Shown: piece after piece, positions 20,309 through 29,185 of the stretch
Numbering within the stretch: the stretch's first letter is position 1
How the letters are laid out: every line of letters starts with the position of its first letter
Assembly: GCA_002162685.1 (NCBI GenBank)
Contig: MAAQ01000023.1
Span: forward strand, 68,259 to 104,906
Source: Flavobacteriales bacterium 33_180_T64
Lineage (GTDB): Bacteria; Bacteroidota; Bacteroidia; Flavobacteriales; Flavobacteriaceae
Direction of reading: 5' to 3'
DNA: 36,648 nucleotides
The notes under the pieces: generated by a model
What the model was told of the DNA's origin: nothing
Databases searched by the model: none
Seen by the model: only the letters and a program-made list of their open reading frames with translations
Translations under genes and position numbers: made by a program

Positions 20309-20371
20309 ATTTCTTTTTTCATGAGTTCTATTCTGAAATTTATATATTATCAAATGCTAAAGTTTTTAAAA

Positions 20372-20950
20372 ATGAAAATCAATCTATTTGTTCTTGCATT
20401 ACTGATCTCAACGTTAACTTTTGCACAAGATGTTTCTGAAGAAAAACTTCCGTATTATGAAGTTCCCGATTATCCTGAAACTTTTACAGCAGGTACAATG
20501 GCTGCAAGAATGATTGATGGTCTTGGGTTTCGATTTTATTGGGCAAGTGAAGGTCTTTCAGAACGAGACCTTGTATTTAAGCCTGATGATGATGCACGTT
20601 CTACTTCAGAAACAATTGACCATATTCTAGATCTATCATATATCATAGTTAATTCGACACTTTTAAAAGCTAATGGAAAGAATGATAACTCTAATATGAG
20701 TTATAGTGATAAACGTAAGCAGGTGTTAATTAATCTAAAAACCGCAGCTGACATTTTAAAAAATAGTGCTGATATTTCGAAGTTTAAAATTATTTTTGGA
20801 GAAAATGAAATTCCATTTTGGAATCAAGTTAATGGTCCAATTGCTGATGCGATATGGCATTGTGGACAACTAGCATCGTTTAGGCGTTCTTCTGGAAACC
20901 CAATTAATCCTAATGTAAATCATTTTAGAGGAACCGTAAAAAAACAATAA
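20372..20950 (+). CDS. Exported DinB-like four-helix protein
   Basis: This 192-residue protein starts at ATG 20372 (MKINLFVLALLI), directly before a signal peptide ending TFAQ; the frame extends to 20321 but would add a non-signal leader. The mature chain is helical, with GLGFRFYWASEGL, a histidine in TIDHILDLSYI and another in AIWHCGQLASFRR, consistent with the DinB/YfiT-like fold that often binds a metal through histidines. DinB-fold proteins are usually cytoplasmic, so an exported member is mildly unusual. It lies between the M28 peptidase and a VOC protein and overlaps the latter by one base (TAATG), so these are co-expressed. Confidence 0.72.
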   Translation: MKINLFVLALLISTLTFAQDVSEEKLPYYEVPDYPETFTAGTMAARMIDGLGFRFYWASEGLSERDLVFKPDDDARSTSETIDHILDLSYIIVNSTLLKANGKNDNSNMSYSDKRKQVLINLKTAADILKNSADISKFKIIFGENEIPFWNQVNGPIADAIWHCGQLASFRRSSGNPINPNVNHFRGTVKKQ

Positions 20951-21339
20951 TGAGTACTGCATTTCTAAAACAAATTCATCCTGTACTTCCTGTTAGGAAT
21001 GTCATGAATTCAATACAGTATTATGTAGAAAAACTTGGATTTAATTTAGTGTTTAAAGATGCTGGAGATCATCCTAGTTATGCTGGAGTTGTTAGAGACG
21101 GAATTGAAATTCATTTGCAATGGCATGGTGAAAGTGATTGGCTTGAAGGAAGGAATGGTGTTTTACTGAAAATTTATGTAGAAGATATAGAAGACTTGTT
21201 TGAAGATTATAAAACACAATTCGTTTTTCATGAACAAACTGTATTAAGAAATACTGCTTGGGGAACTCGTGAATTTGGATTTTATGATATTGATAAAAAC
21301 GGATTAGTTTTTTATAGGAATTTTCGTTCTTTGGAATGA
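20950..21339 (+). CDS. VOC-superfamily (glyoxalase/bleomycin-resistance-like) protein
   Basis: This 129-residue cytoplasmic protein has the beta-alpha-beta-beta-beta pattern of the VOC fold: HPVLPVRNVMNSIQYYVEKLGFNLVFKD, then IEIHLQWHG, LKIYVEDIEDLFEDYK and the final WGTREFGFYDIDKNGLVFYR, which carries the usual metal-ligand region. Bleomycin-resistance-type members bind drugs and others are metal-dependent enzymes; the sequence does not decide. Its ATG overlaps the stop of the DinB-like gene. No terminator is visible before the operon starting at 21430. Confidence 0.82.
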   Translation: MSTAFLKQIHPVLPVRNVMNSIQYYVEKLGFNLVFKDAGDHPSYAGVVRDGIEIHLQWHGESDWLEGRNGVLLKIYVEDIEDLFEDYKTQFVFHEQTVLRNTAWGTREFGFYDIDKNGLVFYRNFRSLE

Positions 21340-21429: not shown

Positions 21430-23838
21430 ATGAAGATATCATTATTCTTTTCAGCTTTACTGTGCTACACATTTTGCTTTTCCCAAAACCTTTCTAAACA
21501 AAAAAATAAAAGCGCTTCTTTTGAAGATTATGATCTTATTTCATCCTATGAGGATTATGCAGAAATGGAACGCGAAGTGGTCTATTTACATTTAAATAAA
21601 TCTACATTTATAAAAGGCGAAGCTATTGGTATAAAAGCTTACATCTTTGATAAAGCCAATAAGCGACTTTCTTCAGCGACTTCAAATTTGTATTGCTCAA
21701 TATTAGATAAGGATGATAAGATTGTTAAGCAGAAACTCATTATGATTAACAATGGGATAGGAATTAATGATTTTATTATTGATAGCTTATTTACATCTGG
21801 TAATTATAAAATTACAGCCTATACGAATTGGATGAAAAACTTTAATGAGAAAAATTTCTATATGCAAGACATACGGATAATCGACCCTGAAGTTGAAAAA
21901 GAAGCTAAGCAGTTAATAAGTAACGGTGATTTAGATGTTCAGTTTTTACCTGAGGGAGGTCATTTAGTTGCCGGCATTGAAACAATAATTGGAGTTACTG
22001 TTAAGGATGACTTTGGTTTTGGTATTAAAAATGTGGATTGTAAAGTTATTGATTCTAAGACTAATGAAATTACAACGTTTCAACTAAATCAATTAGGCTT
22101 AGGACGGTTTAGTTTAACAGCACAAGCTAATGAGAGTTATAAAGTAACCATGAAAATAGATGAAAAAGATTATGAATTTGATATAAAAGACAGCCAATCT
22201 CAAGGTATAGGAATAGGAGTGAAGCGTTTAAAAGATAAAACCTATGTAACGTTTAAAACCAATGAGGCAACTCATAAGCAGATTGCAAACAAAGCCTTTG
22301 TAATGGCTATTCATAATGGCGATCAATTAAAAGCCTTTAACTTTAAGTTTAACCAAAGTTTAAAAGTTGTAAAAGCCATTTCTAATACCGATTTGTTTTC
22401 AGGTATTAATATCATTACCATATTTGATGCTAATAATACACCTGTTTTAGAGCGTCAAGTATTTAATTATAGTGGTTTAAACTTTGTCACTTCAAATGAT
22501 ATAAGGGTAGAGAAGAAGAATGATTCTTTGCTTGTCTCAATTCCTTATAAGGATTTAAATACCAAACAGTTTAATAGTTTTAGTATTTCAGTATTACCAT
22601 CAAATACCAGAGCTTATAATCATCATGAAAACATTTCATCGTCTACATTATTGCAGCCTTATGTGAAAGGATACATAGAAAACGCACAATATTATTTTAA
22701 GGCAATCACTCCAAAAAAAGAATATGAATTAGATAATTTATTATTAACTCAAGGTTGGAGTAGTTATAATTGGGATACCATTTTTAATACGCCTCCAGAT
22801 TATGATTATGATTTTGAAAACGGCATAAGTTATGTTGCTAATTTTACTAATAATAATCAGCAGCAATTGGTAATATACCCAACACTAAATAGTCCGTTTG
22901 AAATTATAGATTTAAAACCAGGAGAAACAGCATTTGAGAAGCAAGGTTTTTTTCCAGTCTCAGATGAAAAAGTTGAAATAGGAGCTATTAATAAAAAAGG
23001 AAAACCTATTATGCCAAACATAGCCTTAAGGTTTAGTCCAGATGTGATACCCGATTTCAATCTTGTAAATGATTATAATATTTTAACATCTAGAGAAATA
23101 AGGTTTACTGGAGTGAATAATTATAGTGATTTTGCAAATGGTTGGAAAAAAATCGAGCAGTTAGATGAAGTGATATTGAAAGGGAAACGAAAGTATACTA
23201 GAGTAGAACGTATTAAAAACTCTACTGTTGGTAAAGTCACATTTATAGATGAAAAGATAAAAAGACATTACAAATCGGTCCTTAATTTTATAGATACGAA
23301 AGGCTTTAATGCGTATTTACATCCAGGAAGTACACCACCTGATTTTGTTATTACAAATCGAAAAAAGATTAGTTTAAATGCAAGTCAGTCTTCAATTGTT
23401 TATCTAGATGGTATGATTTTACAAGGTGAACATACTATTCTTATTGGTATGTCTTTAGATGATGTAGAGTATATTGAAACCAATTCATCTGGAATTGGAG
23501 GCGGTATGCGTGGAGGAGGAGGTATTATTAAGATTAAAACCAACCCTTTTAGTTCATTTGAAAAACCAGAAAAGAAGATAACACATAAGACATTTGAAAT
23601 TCCATTAAAATTTGATGTAGCAAAACGGTTCTATATCCCAAAATATACGTCTTATAATAGCGATTTTTTTAGAGAATATGGTTTGGTAGATTGGTTTTCA
23701 GACGTGAGTACAAATGAAGCGGGCGTTTTAAATCTTAAAGTATTCGATAATAAACAAACAAGCCTTAAGCTTTTTATTGAAGGCATGTCTAATGATGGAA
23801 CATTTATATCTGAAGTTAAAGAATTTAAAATAAAGTAA
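21430..23838 (+). CDS. Secreted MG2-domain/TonB-Plug-like protein, paralogue 1
   Basis: This 802-residue protein starts at ATG 21430; a TTG lies two codons upstream. After the signal peptide (1-19) comes a macroglobulin MG2-type domain (about 45-145) opening with EVVYLHLNKSTFIKGEAIGIKAY, followed by several beta domains. Near the end is a Plug-like segment (655-704) with SIVYLDGMIL, DDVEYIET, a glycine-rich GIGGGMRGGGG turn and IIKIKTN, which mimics the TonB-receptor plug strand-loop-strand. A final MG-like beta domain ends at FKIK. No 22-strand barrel follows, so it cannot itself be a TonB receptor. It is probably periplasmic or surface-exposed. It is followed two bases later by a close paralogue. 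Confidence 0.8.
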   Translation: MKISLFFSALLCYTFCFSQNLSKQKNKSASFEDYDLISSYEDYAEMEREVVYLHLNKSTFIKGEAIGIKAYIFDKANKRLSSATSNLYCSILDKDDKIVKQKLIMINNGIGINDFIIDSLFTSGNYKITAYTNWMKNFNEKNFYMQDIRIIDPEVEKEAKQLISNGDLDVQFLPEGGHLVAGIETIIGVTVKDDFGFGIKNVDCKVIDSKTNEITTFQLNQLGLGRFSLTAQANESYKVTMKIDEKDYEFDIKDSQSQGIGIGVKRLKDKTYVTFKTNEATHKQIANKAFVMAIHNGDQLKAFNFKFNQSLKVVKAISNTDLFSGINIITIFDANNTPVLERQVFNYSGLNFVTSNDIRVEKKNDSLLVSIPYKDLNTKQFNSFSISVLPSNTRAYNHHENISSSTLLQPYVKGYIENAQYYFKAITPKKEYELDNLLLTQGWSSYNWDTIFNTPPDYDYDFENGISYVANFTNNNQQQLVIYPTLNSPFEIIDLKPGETAFEKQGFFPVSDEKVEIGAINKKGKPIMPNIALRFSPDVIPDFNLVNDYNILTSREIRFTGVNNYSDFANGWKKIEQLDEVILKGKRKYTRVERIKNSTVGKVTFIDEKIKRHYKSVLNFIDTKGFNAYLHPGSTPPDFVITNRKKISLNASQSSIVYLDGMILQGEHTILIGMSLDDVEYIETNSSGIGGGMRGGGGIIKIKTNPFSSFEKPEKKITHKTFEIPLKFDVAKRFYIPKYTSYNSDFFREYGLVDWFSDVSTNEAGVLNLKVFDNKQTSLKLFIEGMSNDGTFISEVKEFKIK

Positions 23839-23840
23839 CC

Positions 23841-26342
23841 ATGAGAAAATTAAAACTAGTGACTAAAGTATTTTTGTTTTTTTTGATAACTCAAACAGTA
23901 ATTGCTCAAACCGAAAATGCAGATGCAGACCTTATTTCTGCTTATGAGGATTATACCGAAATGGATAGAGAAATAGTCTATGCACATCTCAACAAAACGA
24001 TATTCATAAAAGGGGAATCTATAGGAATAAAGGCCTATGTTTTTGATAAAAGCACCAAGCAATTATCTAGCCAGACGTCTAATTTATACTGTACAATTTC
24101 AGATGACACAGGGAAAATAATCAAGAAGCAATTGGTTATGGTTAATAAAGGTACAGCAGTAAGTGATTTTGAAATAGATTCGTCTTATACTTCTGGAAAT
24201 TATACCATAAAAGCTTATACCAATTGGATGAAGAATTTCTCTGAAGACAATTTATTTACAGAAAAGATAAGAATCATAGATCCAGCAGTAGAGCAACACA
24301 TGGTTTCTAATACAGAACTCTTAAAAATAGATGCTCAGTTTTTGCCAGAAGGCGGACATTTATTAGTTGACGTAGAAAACACAATTGGTGTTGTTATAAA
24401 AAATAAGGAAGGATTAGGTTTACCAAATGCCAGGGGAGAAATTGTAGACCAAGATGGTGTTGTGGTCACGAATTTTAAAGTCAATCAATTTGGAATCGGA
24501 AAATGTCTTTTAAAACCCAAAGTAAATACAATATATACTGCTGTTTTTAAATTTAATGATCAAGAGCATAGCGTTCTTATAGAAAATATAGAAACAGTGG
24601 GTGTTGGTATGACAGTTGTTGGGATACGAGATAAAGTCGCTTTAACACTAAAAACAAACCCATCAACATTACAAAATATCAAAGACGGTATTTTCAAACT
24701 AGCCATACATAATGGTCAAGAATTAAAAGAAACATTATTTAAGTTTGGTGATAAAACGGAAATAGTGAAACTCATTTCAAGTCAAGATTTATTTAATGGG
24801 ATGAATATTTTTACCCTATTCGATTCAAATAATAATCCGTTAATTGAACGTTTATACTTTAATTATGAAGGGTTTAATTTTGCAACTTCCGAAGAAGAAC
24901 GTGTAACAGTTGCAAATGATTCTGTAACTATAGTACTGCCATATAAAATAGAAGATAAGAGTTTGGCTAATAATTTTAGTGTCTCTGTTTTGCCAAGTGG
25001 AACAAATTCATTCCACCATCAAAACATTTCATCTTATATATTATTGCAACCGTATTTAAAAGGCTATGTGGAGCAAGCCAATTACTATTTCACAGATATT
25101 TCAGCAAGAAAGAAATTTGAACTCGATAACTTATTAATCACCCAAGGGTGGAGTAGTTATGATTGGAATGAGATCTTTAATAATCCACCAGAATATGCAT
25201 ATGATTTTGAGAATGGCATCAGTTACACTTTGAATTCACCACAAAAAGTTGATAAACAATTAATGATTTATCCAACATTAAATCATGCAACTAAATTTGT
25301 GAGTTTGTCTAAAGATAATAGTTCCTATACGGCTTCTAGTTTATTTCCTGTAGAGAAAGAGAATGTGAAAATTAAACAAATAGATGAAAATGGAAAAGTG
25401 TCTAAACCTAGCTTAAATATTCAATTTGATCCTTTTAAGATTCCAGAAATGGATAGTGAAATTACACCATTAGTTATACAGACATTAAATGGTTATCCTA
25501 TTACTACTGAGGTGTCTATGAATGATGTGCTAAAAACTGTAGAAGAGTTAGATGAAGTGATTATTAATAAGAAAAAAGGCTATACAAAGATAGAGAAATT
25601 ACAGAATAGAAGTTTAGGTAAAGTAGAAGCAATTGATGATGAAATAGTTAGACGTTACAGAACATTAGTGCGTTATTTAAGAGATAAAGGGTTTACAGTA
25701 GCAGATACACCAACAAAATTCGAAATTTATACAAACTCTACTAATAGTTTAAGACATCGAGCAGCATTAAATACAGAAGAATCATCAGCTTCTGCGGTAG
25801 CAGATTATAATCCAAATGGTCAAGCTGTTCATTTACAGAAATCTAGTAAATCGCTTACTCAGCATATGACATTTGATCAAGAGTCGAGCACAAGCCCTAT
25901 TGTATATTTGGATGGCATGGTATTACAACAAGACTTAACTATTTTGAAAACGTTAACCATGGATCAGATTGAATGGATTGAAGTTAATAAATCTGGAGTA
26001 GGAGGAGGAATGCGTTCTGGTGGAGCAGGTTTAATTAGAATAAAAACGAAACCTTTTGCTAAGGTTAAATTAGATACAAAGGATGTTTATGGTGTTTATG
26101 AGATTCCGCTGAAATTTGCTGTTGCAAAACAGTTTTATGTTCCAGAATATAAATCTTATGAGACCGATTTTTTTAACAAATTTGGTGTAATTGATTGGAT
26201 TCCTAATCTAAACTTAAATGAAGAGGGACAATTAGAATTTAAAATAGCAAATAAGCAATTAAAAGAATTTAAGGTTTTTGTTGAAGGTGTGGCCAGCAAC
26301 AATACTTTTATTTCTGAAGTTAAATCCATTAAATTGAATTAG
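23841..26342 (+). CDS. Secreted MG2-domain/TonB-Plug-like protein, paralogue 2
   Basis: This 833-residue protein is collinear with its upstream neighbour. The signal peptide (1-23, TVIAQ) leads into an MG2-type domain with REIVYAHLNKTIFIKGESIG. The two copies share long near-identical blocks (SYEDY.EM.RE, TSGNY.I.AYTNWMKNF, LLQPY.KGY, LDNLL.TQGWSSY). The Plug-like segment at 685-736 has SPIVYLDGMVL, IEWIEVNKSGVGGGMRSGG and LIRIKTK. Just before it this copy has about 40 extra residues, rich in Ser, Ala and Gln (about 640-683), absent from paralogue 1. The last domain, FYVPEYKSYETDFF to the end, matches copy 1. The CarboxypepD_reg-like gene follows four bases later. Confidence 0.8.
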   Translation: MRKLKLVTKVFLFFLITQTVIAQTENADADLISAYEDYTEMDREIVYAHLNKTIFIKGESIGIKAYVFDKSTKQLSSQTSNLYCTISDDTGKIIKKQLVMVNKGTAVSDFEIDSSYTSGNYTIKAYTNWMKNFSEDNLFTEKIRIIDPAVEQHMVSNTELLKIDAQFLPEGGHLLVDVENTIGVVIKNKEGLGLPNARGEIVDQDGVVVTNFKVNQFGIGKCLLKPKVNTIYTAVFKFNDQEHSVLIENIETVGVGMTVVGIRDKVALTLKTNPSTLQNIKDGIFKLAIHNGQELKETLFKFGDKTEIVKLISSQDLFNGMNIFTLFDSNNNPLIERLYFNYEGFNFATSEEERVTVANDSVTIVLPYKIEDKSLANNFSVSVLPSGTNSFHHQNISSYILLQPYLKGYVEQANYYFTDISARKKFELDNLLITQGWSSYDWNEIFNNPPEYAYDFENGISYTLNSPQKVDKQLMIYPTLNHATKFVSLSKDNSSYTASSLFPVEKENVKIKQIDENGKVSKPSLNIQFDPFKIPEMDSEITPLVIQTLNGYPITTEVSMNDVLKTVEELDEVIINKKKGYTKIEKLQNRSLGKVEAIDDEIVRRYRTLVRYLRDKGFTVADTPTKFEIYTNSTNSLRHRAALNTEESSASAVADYNPNGQAVHLQKSSKSLTQHMTFDQESSTSPIVYLDGMVLQQDLTILKTLTMDQIEWIEVNKSGVGGGMRSGGAGLIRIKTKPFAKVKLDTKDVYGVYEIPLKFAVAKQFYVPEYKSYETDFFNKFGVIDWIPNLNLNEEGQLEFKIANKQLKEFKVFVEGVASNNTFISEVKSIKLN

Positions 26343-26346
26343 AAGT

Positions 26347-27921
26347 ATGCAAAAAATCACCATTTCAATCTTTTTTCTAATCATTTCGACAACTATGAGT
26401 ACACTATTGGCTCAAAAAGTGAGCTCAGAAAACGATACTAAAGAAATCATTTGTCAGGTTTTAGACCAATCAGATAAACTTCCAGTAGTATTTGCTACTG
26501 TAAGTATTAAAGATAAAAACAATGGCGTTATAGCTGATGCAGATGGTAATTTTAGGCTTCCGTATAAATACAAAACTCAAAATAATGTATTAGTTATTTC
26601 TTCAATTGGTTATGAAACTAAAACATTAGAGGTTACAAGTTTATTGGATAATCAAAAGAATATTATCTTTTTAAAACCTAAAATAGAAGCTCTAAATGCG
26701 GTAATGATTTCTGCAAAGAAGAATACTCCCAAAAAAAACTTTGAGAATGTGAGAGAGATTGTAGGGAAAGCAATTAATAAAATGAAAGCCAATTTTCCAA
26801 CAAATCCACATTCTTATATAGGTTATTACAGAGATTATCAGCTTTTAGAAAATAGATATTTTAATCTTAATGAAGGCATAGCTGAAGTTTTTGATGCTGG
26901 ATTTCAAACCAATAAATTACTTTTTAAAGATAATCAAACAGCATTGTATAAGTTTAAGCAAAATTCAAAATTCCCAAAGGATACGTTGCTAACAATGGCT
27001 TATGATAATGAAAAATACAAATACATTAAAGATGCTACAATATCTTCAATTGGAGGTAATGAACTAAGTATTTTAAATGTGCATAATTCTATCCGCAATA
27101 ACCAATACCATTCCTTTTCATTTGTACATACCTTTAAAGATGATTTCCTCTATAATCACGAATTTAGAGTTGCTAAAAAATTATATCTTGATGATACACT
27201 AATTTATGAAATTAGATTTTTTGCCATAGAAGATGTCACAGGTGTGAAAAACACAGCAGATGGCGTGATTTATATAGCTCAAGATACTTATGCCATTCAT
27301 AAACTAGAATATTTTGGTTATGTTGTTGGTGATGCAGACCCATTTTTCTCTGTAAAGATTGAGTATGCTTCTAAAGATGATAAGATGTTTCTTAATTACA
27401 TTTCTTTTAATAATAAGTTTAAAATAAAAAGTAGAAATGACTTCGAAATTGAGGACATCTCTTATGATCAAGAAGACAATGCATTTTTTGTAAGATTTAA
27501 TAATACAGTTGATCGAACAACAATAGCTAATAGCAAGAATTTTAGATTCATATACAAAAAGCGTAGACTTAAGATAAATGCTGTTAGTTTAGATAATAGT
27601 AAAACGGTTAAAATTAGTCTAATTAATGGTGCAATTTCTTCAAATGAAGAGTTAAATGAAGAAAATATGAAAGCGCTTAAATATAAAATTAAAAATGTGA
27701 CAGATATCACAGGACGCGCTCTCAATAAAAGAACATTCATAAGAGTAAATCAATTTAGAGAGCTTTTTGTTCAAGAAGTTTTTAAGAGCAAAACGTTACC
27801 TGAAAACCTGTATTTCGTTAATAAATCTGAAAAACTGAGTGAATCATTGATAAACAAAGATGTACTAACTAATGTTTCAGACTATTGGATTAATTCTCCT
27901 TTAAAGGCTACAAAAAATTAA
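26347..27921 (+). CDS. Exported CarboxypepD_reg-like domain protein with a possible SbsA Ig-like segment
   Basis: This 524-residue protein has a signal peptide (about 1-22, TLLAQ). The CarboxypepD_reg-like beta-sandwich (about 34-115) has CQVLDQSDKLPVVFATVSIK, GVIADADGNFRLPY and VISSIGYETKTLEV, the domain usually fused to the front of SusC-type receptors. A middle region (about 130-370) with YIGYYRDYQLLENRYFNLNE and AQDTYAIHKLEYFGY resembles other Bacteroidota surface proteins of unknown role. Residues about 375-465 (VRFNNTVDRTTIANSKNFRF, INAVSLDNSKTVKISL, NVTDITGRALN) look like an SbsA-type Ig-like domain. It is the last gene of the MG2/Plug operon and ends before a bidirectional terminator. 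Its function is unknown. Confidence 0.75.
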   Translation: MQKITISIFFLIISTTMSTLLAQKVSSENDTKEIICQVLDQSDKLPVVFATVSIKDKNNGVIADADGNFRLPYKYKTQNNVLVISSIGYETKTLEVTSLLDNQKNIIFLKPKIEALNAVMISAKKNTPKKNFENVREIVGKAINKMKANFPTNPHSYIGYYRDYQLLENRYFNLNEGIAEVFDAGFQTNKLLFKDNQTALYKFKQNSKFPKDTLLTMAYDNEKYKYIKDATISSIGGNELSILNVHNSIRNNQYHSFSFVHTFKDDFLYNHEFRVAKKLYLDDTLIYEIRFFAIEDVTGVKNTADGVIYIAQDTYAIHKLEYFGYVVGDADPFFSVKIEYASKDDKMFLNYISFNNKFKIKSRNDFEIEDISYDQEDNAFFVRFNNTVDRTTIANSKNFRFIYKKRRLKINAVSLDNSKTVKISLINGAISSNEELNEENMKALKYKIKNVTDITGRALNKRTFIRVNQFRELFVQEVFKSKTLPENLYFVNKSEKLSESLINKDVLTNVSDYWINSPLKATKN

Positions 27922-27979: not shown

Positions 27980-29185
27980 TTATAACTCTACTTCAACTTG
28001 ATTCCGTAGGATATCATCAAAGATTTCACGTTTTCTAATAAGGTGTGCTTTTTTGTTATGCCATAATATTTCTGCAGGACGATAACGCGAGTTATAATTA
28101 GAAGCCATAGAATAGCAATACGCACCAGTATTTTTAAATGCGAGAATATCGTCTTCTGTAATTTCATTTATACGTCTGTTATTAGCAAATGTATCTGTTT
28201 CGCAGATGTAACCAACTACCGAGTAAAAACGCTTACGACCATTTGGATTAGAAATGTTAATGATCTCATGCTGCGAACCATAGAGCATAGGTCTAATTAA
28301 ATGATTAAATCCTGAGTCTACTTGTGCAAAAACAGTAGAGGTTGTTTGCTTTACAACATTAACCTTAGTTAAAAAATAACCTGCTTCACTTACCAAGAAT
28401 TTCCCAGGCTCAAAAGCTAAAGTAAGCTGCTTCCCATAGGTTTTACAAAACGCATTAAATCGCTGGCTAAGTTTCTCTCCTAGCTCTTCAATATTGGTTT
28501 CAATATCTCCAGCGTTATAAGGCACTTTAAATCCAGAACCAAAATCTATAAAATCTAAATTTTTAAACTTTTTTGCCGTATCAAATAAAATTTCACTAGC
28601 ATATAAAAACACATCAATATCAAGAATATCACTGCCAGTATGCATGTGAATACCATTAATAGTCATTTTTGTATTCTCAATAATTCTCAATAAATGTGGA
28701 ATTTGATGAATTGAAATCCCAAATTTACTATCAATATGACCTACGGAAATATTAGTATTTCCACCAGCCATCACATGTGGATTAATTCGTATGCAAACAG
28801 GTGTTTTAGGATGCTTAGTTCCAAACTGTTCTAATATTGAGAGGTTGTCAATATTAATTTGAACACCTAAGTTTGTTGCTTTTTCAATTTCCAAAAGTGA
28901 CACACCATTTGGTGTGAAAATAATTTGCTCTGGCTTGAAACCCGCTTTTAAACCTAATTGAACTTCTTGTATAGAAACGGTATCTAAACCAGAACCTAAT
29001 TGATTAAATAATTTTAAAACCGAAATATTAGACAATGCCTTCACAGCATAGTTTAATTTTAACTGTTTGACCTTACCAAATGCAGCTGTTAAGCGTTTAT
29101 ACTGAAACTTGATTTTTTCAGTATCATAAACATAAACAGGACTTTCATAGTCCTTGGCAATTTGTAACAAGGTGTTTTGTTTCAT
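27980..29185 (-). CDS. lysA: Diaminopimelate decarboxylase
   Basis: This 401-residue fold-type III PLP enzyme decarboxylates meso-diaminopimelate to lysine, the last step of lysine synthesis. The PLP-binding lysine is Lys49 in NYAVKAL. Other landmarks are GLDTVSIQEV (67-76), HTGSD (182-186), FGSGFKVPY (215-223), the phosphate-binding EPGKFLV, and GYICETDTFANNRRI with the active-site cysteine contributed across the dimer. Length and motifs are complete. It is divergent from an ACT-domain gene resembling the regulatory half of aspartate kinase, a fitting neighbour for the lysine pathway. A -7-like element lies at 29224-29231. Confidence 0.95.
   Translation of the reverse strand: MKQNTLLQIAKDYESPVYVYDTEKIKFQYKRLTAAFGKVKQLKLNYAVKALSNISVLKLFNQLGSGLDTVSIQEVQLGLKAGFKPEQIIFTPNGVSLLEIEKATNLGVQINIDNLSILEQFGTKHPKTPVCIRINPHVMAGGNTNISVGHIDSKFGISIHQIPHLLRIIENTKMTINGIHMHTGSDILDIDVFLYASEILFDTAKKFKNLDFIDFGSGFKVPYNAGDIETNIEELGEKLSQRFNAFCKTYGKQLTLAFEPGKFLVSEAGYFLTKVNVVKQTTSTVFAQVDSGFNHLIRPMLYGSQHEIINISNPNGRKRFYSVVGYICETDTFANNRRINEITEDDILAFKNTGAYCYSMASNYNSRYRPAEILWHNKKAHLIRKREIFDDILRNQVEVEL

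Follow-up and report, generated by a model that had tools for sequence, protein, structure and literature searches.

Macroglobulins, together with complement, and TonB-dependent transport are two well-studied machines that, to our knowledge, are not known to touch. Here, we describe an operon of three genes, A, B and C, whose products have features in common with both. The operon lies in a 36,648-nucleotide stretch of contig MAAQ01000023.1 (the window) of Flavobacteriales bacterium 33_180_T64, whose genome comprises 3.75 Mb in 23 contigs. All three genes are on one strand, with intergenic spacings of 2 bp between A and B and 4 bp between B and C, and the nearest named relatives of their products are those of Psychroserpens.

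Each of the closest described systems resembles the operon in part. A and B share macroglobulin (MG) domains with the bacterial alpha-2-macroglobulins, such as A2M of E. coli and Salmonella and MagD of P. aeruginosa, and MagD, a type II protein, is likewise thioester-less and has operon neighbours (PMC5764988). Unlike the bacterial alpha-2-macroglobulins, however, A and B have chains that stop before the TED and that carry a TonB box and a plug before the last MG domain. The SusC/RagA transporters have their NTE in common with C and their TonB box and plug in common with A and B, whereas the operon encodes no barrel, the NTE and the plug are found on separate chains, and the plug resides inside a macroglobulin. 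FecA/FecR/ECF signalling is resembled by three loci of relatives (L027, L028 and L128), in which an STN-NTE protein, FecR and an ECF sigma factor are encoded beside a macroglobulin with a plug (hereafter MG-plug), but there STN is carried by a barrel-less relative of C or by an MG-plug fusion, and C of the window lacks STN. The fold predicted for residues ~131-362 of C may be that of LolA, LolB, RseB and MucB, but this domain is embedded between an NTE and an Ig domain and has no Pfam LolA match. Operons of the BT2172-BT2173 type, which pair a TonB-dependent transporter (TBDT) with DUF4249 (PMC11003636), resemble six of nine loci of ~590-aa MG relatives, in which a TBDT gene and a DUF4249 gene both occur within three genes, whereas neither a TBDT gene nor a DUF4249 gene directly adjoins the operon in the window. 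A literature search that did not extend to subscription journals or preprints returned no published description of a macroglobulin-borne plug. Among the best 120 of 1637 relatives, long ones already bear the database names "TonB-dependent receptor plug domain-containing protein" or "Alpha-2-macroglobulin domain-containing".

Macroglobulin, TonB box and plug in proteins A and B

Gene A (21430..23838, + strand; 802 aa) and gene B (23841..26342, + strand; 833 aa) are tandem paralogues with 43% identity. Each product has a signal-like start, followed by MG-type domains, a TonB box, a plug, which is diverged in A, and a last MG domain, located at residues ~750-833 in B. The MG domains found in A and B form the set expected of an alpha-2-macroglobulin, bearing out the macroglobulin relation that an earlier note, made from the sequence of this DNA, had proposed. 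Neither protein has the thioester motif C.EQ, and both chains end before the TED; among the 120 long plug-bearing relatives listed, 119 have C.EQ within residues 951-1150. A third copy of the A/B type (793 aa) is encoded on contig 16 of the same genome without a C gene.

The TonB box reads LDEVIL in A (aa 578-583; 23161..23178, + strand) and LDEVII in B (aa 570-575; 25548..25565, + strand), where it is the best-conserved part of a linker left disordered in the structure model of B. In an alignment of 66 rows, L570 is present in all 66, the following D in 74%, E572 in 92% and V573 in 94%, and 54 of these 66 close relatives have the motif L[DNE]EV. Without TonB, it is hard to account for a conserved box in a disordered linker that shows little conservation elsewhere. 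In Bt1763, the motif VDEVVV is required for growth on levan (PMC7782687).

The plug segment of B (residues ~590-742; 25608..26066, + strand) was delimited by profile-profile comparison and alignment and holds a disordered insertion. The comparison gave 96.4% with an E value of 1.1e-9, and seven control regions gave at most 0.6%. No barrel family match was found in A, B or C, and no transmembrane beta-barrel is seen in the structure models of B and C, A being judged by its identity to B. Thus, the observation behind the earlier note, that the operon contains receptor parts without a receptor barrel, is confirmed, and the interpretation placed on it is partly supported, as described below. By sequence, A and B appear to have the plug and TonB box of a TonB-dependent receptor, but no barrel on the same chain. 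A and B are members neither of the TBDTs nor of the alpha-2-macroglobulins, since each class has a defining feature that they lack.

In C3, C5 and A2M, the order of MG6, the anaphylatoxin domain and the bait region is defined by known domain borders, and PF00207 starts within MG6. Taking these borders to apply here, we place the TonB box and plug of A and B, which stand directly before the last MG domain, at the site of the protease bait region. A and B thus look like exported, thioester-less macroglobulin-type proteins in which a cassette of TonB box and plug now occupies the bait site.

Several further hybrid proteins were observed in the same genome. A 2123-aa macroglobulin (L144 1939-8310, contig 14) has an NTE and the motif LEEVIVV between its bait-region domain and PF00207, without a Pfam Plug match. 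A DUF4140/DUF4139 protein (L143 2880-4994, contig 10) has an inserted NTE, an LDEVV motif and a plug, without a barrel family match, and a BlaR1-type M56 peptidase (L142 2948-5077, contig 6) has a plug-like segment.

Plugs and barrels in relatives and in the genome

The earlier note suggested that the assembly might dock on a TonB-dependent channel encoded elsewhere. Among relatives that have the thioester, the arrangement of genes is consistent with this idea. In five loci (L131 1551-8958; L132 2700-10306; L175 5660-12944; L201 2641-10041; L202 3284-10700), the plug positions of the SusC profile TIGR04056 (e.g. 57-207, E 1.4e-48) are found in a macroglobulin of 1506-1537 aa that also has MG2, A2M and TED as well as a Plug match. 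The gene immediately upstream encodes the NTE and the SusC barrel positions (e.g. 214-980, E 2e-49) but no plug. Of 299 genomes searched within the window's family, 11 have a thioester macroglobulin with a plug (at 1e-150), and in all 11 a SusC-like barrel gene stands 2-5 bp before it. Pfam Plug was detected in none of the 11 partner barrels, in scans at E<=0.01 or at E<=1. A hidden Markov model (HMM) of receptor plugs likewise gave 0.23 or worse on these barrels, compared with 5.6e-7 to 3.6e-60 on seven receptors of the window's own genome. A first HMM, built from three macroglobulin-borne plugs, was weak, giving 0.0022 to 2 on four of these seven receptors; the second, used here, was built from seven receptor-type plugs found via the first and gave 5.6e-7 or better on all seven, three of which are part of the HMM itself. 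No plugless SusC-like barrel was found in 19 A2M-TED loci without a detected plug, which were drawn, mostly by rank, from 46 other matching genomes and all belong to other families of the class. With the receptor-plug HMM, the strongest hit in these 19 loci was 0.028 over 29 residues, in L193, and an LDEV-like motif is present in L193 and L183. Judged from these gene and domain arrangements, the thioester-bearing sister family seems to supply its plug in trans to a neighbouring plugless SusC-like barrel.

No such partner was found for A and B among the three barrel families searched in their genome. All five SusC proteins of the genome that score above the family cut-off have a Pfam plug, and just one barrel lacks a plug segment, a 577-aa TonB_dep_Rec protein (L195 3173-4906, contig 14), whose gene directly follows one for 1007 aa and is unlinked to the operon. 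Likewise, no plugless barrel was found in 33 loci of TED-less MG-plug genes retrieved by the genome search. In three of them, a receptor with its own plug (L136 1789-4029; L207 3018-5315; L212 9066-11300) is encoded 2-3 genes from the MG-plug gene, with 71-77% identity to a receptor of the window's genome (L009); the BLAST barrel flag used in the neighbour counts missed these receptors. All 11 thioester-bearing relatives thus appear to pair a plug with a barrel from another gene; for A and B, docking in a barrel encoded elsewhere is plausible. As a separate observation, TED-less MG-plug genes lie near groES-groEL in five genomes (L136, L205, L207, L208 and L212).

Protein C and the recurrence of the gene set

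Gene C (26347..27921, + strand; 524 aa) encodes a signal-like start, a SusC-type NTE (aa 32-113), a TonB-box-like motif (L116..V119.I121), a LolA/RseB-like domain (aa ~131-362), an S-layer-type Ig domain (aa 364-461) and a tail. C shares with the NTE of SusC the arrangement of a CarboxypepD_reg-like domain followed by a TonB box, and L116 together with V or I at position 119 is present in all 61 relatives of C. LolA, RseB and MucB are among the structural matches of the central domain. The NTE that the earlier note assigned to C, as the domain that precedes the plug in SusC, is therefore present, but it accounts for only part of a protein that also has LolA-like and Ig-like domains. STN is present in three of the 61 relatives, which are the proteins of L027, L028 and L128, in which the STN-C and MG-plug genes are preceded by genes for an ECF sigma factor and FecR. 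L128 additionally encodes an STN-NTE-MG-plug fusion. A distant paralogue of C in the window's genome (476 aa; L018 6132-7562, contig 21) has no MG-plug neighbour.

In 3 of the 80 genomes compared, an NTE is fused to an MG-plug protein, giving four proteins that are 1206-1340 aa long. The three that were scanned with Pfam all have CarbopepD_reg_2 and Plug, and two of them have MG2 at E<=0.01; the fourth (L129 3734-7429) was assigned by HMMs built here.

We examined how often C and MG-plug genes occur together using 78 C loci, obtained from the best 80 of 191 relatives in named genomes, some of them on short contigs; the genera named belong to the Flavobacteriaceae. An MG-plug gene stands beside C in 18 of the 78, with the MG gene upstream in 5 and C upstream in 13. 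By genomic context, adjacency is found in 12 of 37 loci with lysA, dinB and glyoxalase genes, 2 of 5 with metG and ferritin, 2 of 3 in which ECF and FecR genes are present, and 2 of the remaining 33. The first of these contexts is that of the window, where a glyoxalase-like gene (20950..21339, + strand) and a DinB-like gene with a weak match (E 0.17; 20321..20950, + strand), which lies outside the system, are upstream of A, and lysA, encoding diaminopimelate decarboxylase (27980..29185, - strand), is convergent to the operon. Starting from the MG-plug genes, C is present in only 2 of the 33 TED-less loci. Among 80 genomes of the family, an MG-plug match at 1e-20 is found in 37, a close relative of C (>390 bits) in 11 and both in 10, giving MG-plug genes in 10 of 11 C-bearing genomes compared with 27 of 69 others (Fisher p 0.0015, with kinship not corrected); the two genes are adjacent in 4 of the 11. 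We did not use the rank of C as the top neighbour of MG-plug genes, since those counts include 18 loci retrieved through C, which biases the rank.

A midpoint-rooted tree was built from 49 TED-less MG-plug proteins scoring above 400 bits, including at least one identical pair (loci L058 and L200) and leaving the C-linked genes of L128, which fall below the score cut, outside. In this tree, the C-adjacent MG-plug proteins, except that of L030, form one clade (support 0.968) that spans both gene orders and several genomic sites. A and B belong to separate orthologue groups that are sisters of each other, and Lacinutrix L021 has members of both. The proposal that the three genes form one set is thus not upheld in its strict form. 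Regular separation of the genes in relatives, which had been named as counting against it, is largely what we found; the set recurs but is not obligate, because C is mostly separate from MG-plug genes.

A proposed TonB-handled macroglobulin and its alternatives

The best supported reading, to which we give roughly even weight for and against, takes A and B to be TonB-handled macroglobulins that have C as a partner. TonB would grip the box in the disordered linker and pull the plug, and thereby the macroglobulin, presumably a ring that moves, making it a part driven by the proton-motive force on the periplasmic side of the outer membrane. The plug of the thioester-bearing sister family would belong to the plugless SusC-like barrel encoded one gene upstream; for A and B, the barrel, if there is one, would be encoded elsewhere. 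C, with its NTE, its own box-like linker, its Ig domain and a predicted LolA-like fold of the type that binds lipids or lipoproteins, may be the partner for sensing or for cargo, and in some relatives it may be linked through STN with FecR and with an ECF sigma factor. Sequence and structure models show the domains, the box and the plug, the adjacency of the genes, the split receptor pairs and the sigma and FecR genes near relatives, whereas TonB binding, the periplasmic location, the ring and its movement, the ligand, the signalling and any docking of A and B in a barrel are inferred. A broader view, which we regard as possible but tentative, is that in this bacterial family the bait site of a macroglobulin can hold, in trans, the plug of an outer-membrane channel, with TonB opening the channel as well as switching the macroglobulin, and with A, B and C as a thioester-less branch whose barrel is elsewhere.

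Several findings weigh against a TonB-handled A and B with C as partner. Twelve of the 66 close relatives lack L[DNE]EV, and 7 of 49 TED-less relatives have no match even to a loose box motif, several of the loose matches in the others not being boxes. Pfam Plug is not detected in A or B, whose plug is strongly diverged, and the receptor-plug HMM matches only 17 of 45 MG proteins of TED-less loci. No partner barrel was found in the genome, the search having covered three barrel families and not others. C has no MG-plug gene in the available stretch of 60 of the 78 C loci, and there is only a weak match between the LolA-like region of C and the middle domain of the fusions. Furthermore, all nine ~590-aa MG relatives (L133 and L239-L246) carry a half-plug and lack an LDEV-type motif; a TBDT lies within three genes in eight of the nine loci and DUF4249 in seven. 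Since such a half-plug without a box stands beside a complete receptor, a plug segment need not plug.

These same half-plugs favour a structural or ligand-binding role for the plug at the bait site, in which A and B would be type II-like macroglobulins that trap or bind proteases or exported proteins without TonB. MagD offers a precedent, as a thioester-less protein that traps a protease and has operon partners (PMC5764988), but the conserved box in the linker of B argues against this view, and we consider it rather unlikely. The box is instead accommodated if A, B or both insert their plug into an outer-membrane barrel that is encoded elsewhere and thereby gate it, the macroglobulin standing guard at the periplasmic mouth of that barrel. 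The 11 split receptor pairs provide the precedent for such docking, but all five SusC proteins of the genome are already plugged, the 577-aa barrel is unlinked, and the TED-less loci offer at most a self-plugged receptor a few genes away; across the three barrel families searched, this leaves the proposal somewhat doubtful.

Two further explanations turn on C. The operon could be a stress sensor in which C senses mislocalised lipid or lipoprotein and A and B provide a TonB-coupled readout, passed in relatives from STN to FecR to an ECF sigma factor. The structural matches of C to LolA, RseB and MucB fit such a role, as do the ECF sigma and FecR genes that adjoin STN-C and MG-plug genes in L027, L028 and L128. 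However, the STN-bearing relatives are confined to those three loci, C of the window has no STN, and no FecR or sigma gene directly flanks the operon, making the sensor improbable. Alternatively, A, B and C may merely share a neighbourhood, C belonging to the DinB-glyoxalase-lysA locus and the MG-plug genes having drifted in. C does stand alone in 25 of the 37 loci of that context, and it is scarce beside TED-less MG-plug genes. Against this, adjacency also occurs at two metG/ferritin, two ECF-FecR and two other loci, in both gene orders; of the C-linked genes included in the tree, all except L030 belong to a single clade; and the two genes co-occur across genomes, by the uncorrected comparison given above. 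We therefore regard mere proximity as quite improbable. The probabilities we attach to these readings need not sum to one, because the readings partly overlap.

If A and B are indeed handled by TonB, a macroglobulin could be switched by the proton-motive force rather than by protease cleavage, and a TonB channel could be gated by a plug that resides on another protein. The finding joins macroglobulins and complement with TonB-dependent transport, and suggests that bacteria may drive macroglobulins by the motor of outer-membrane uptake.

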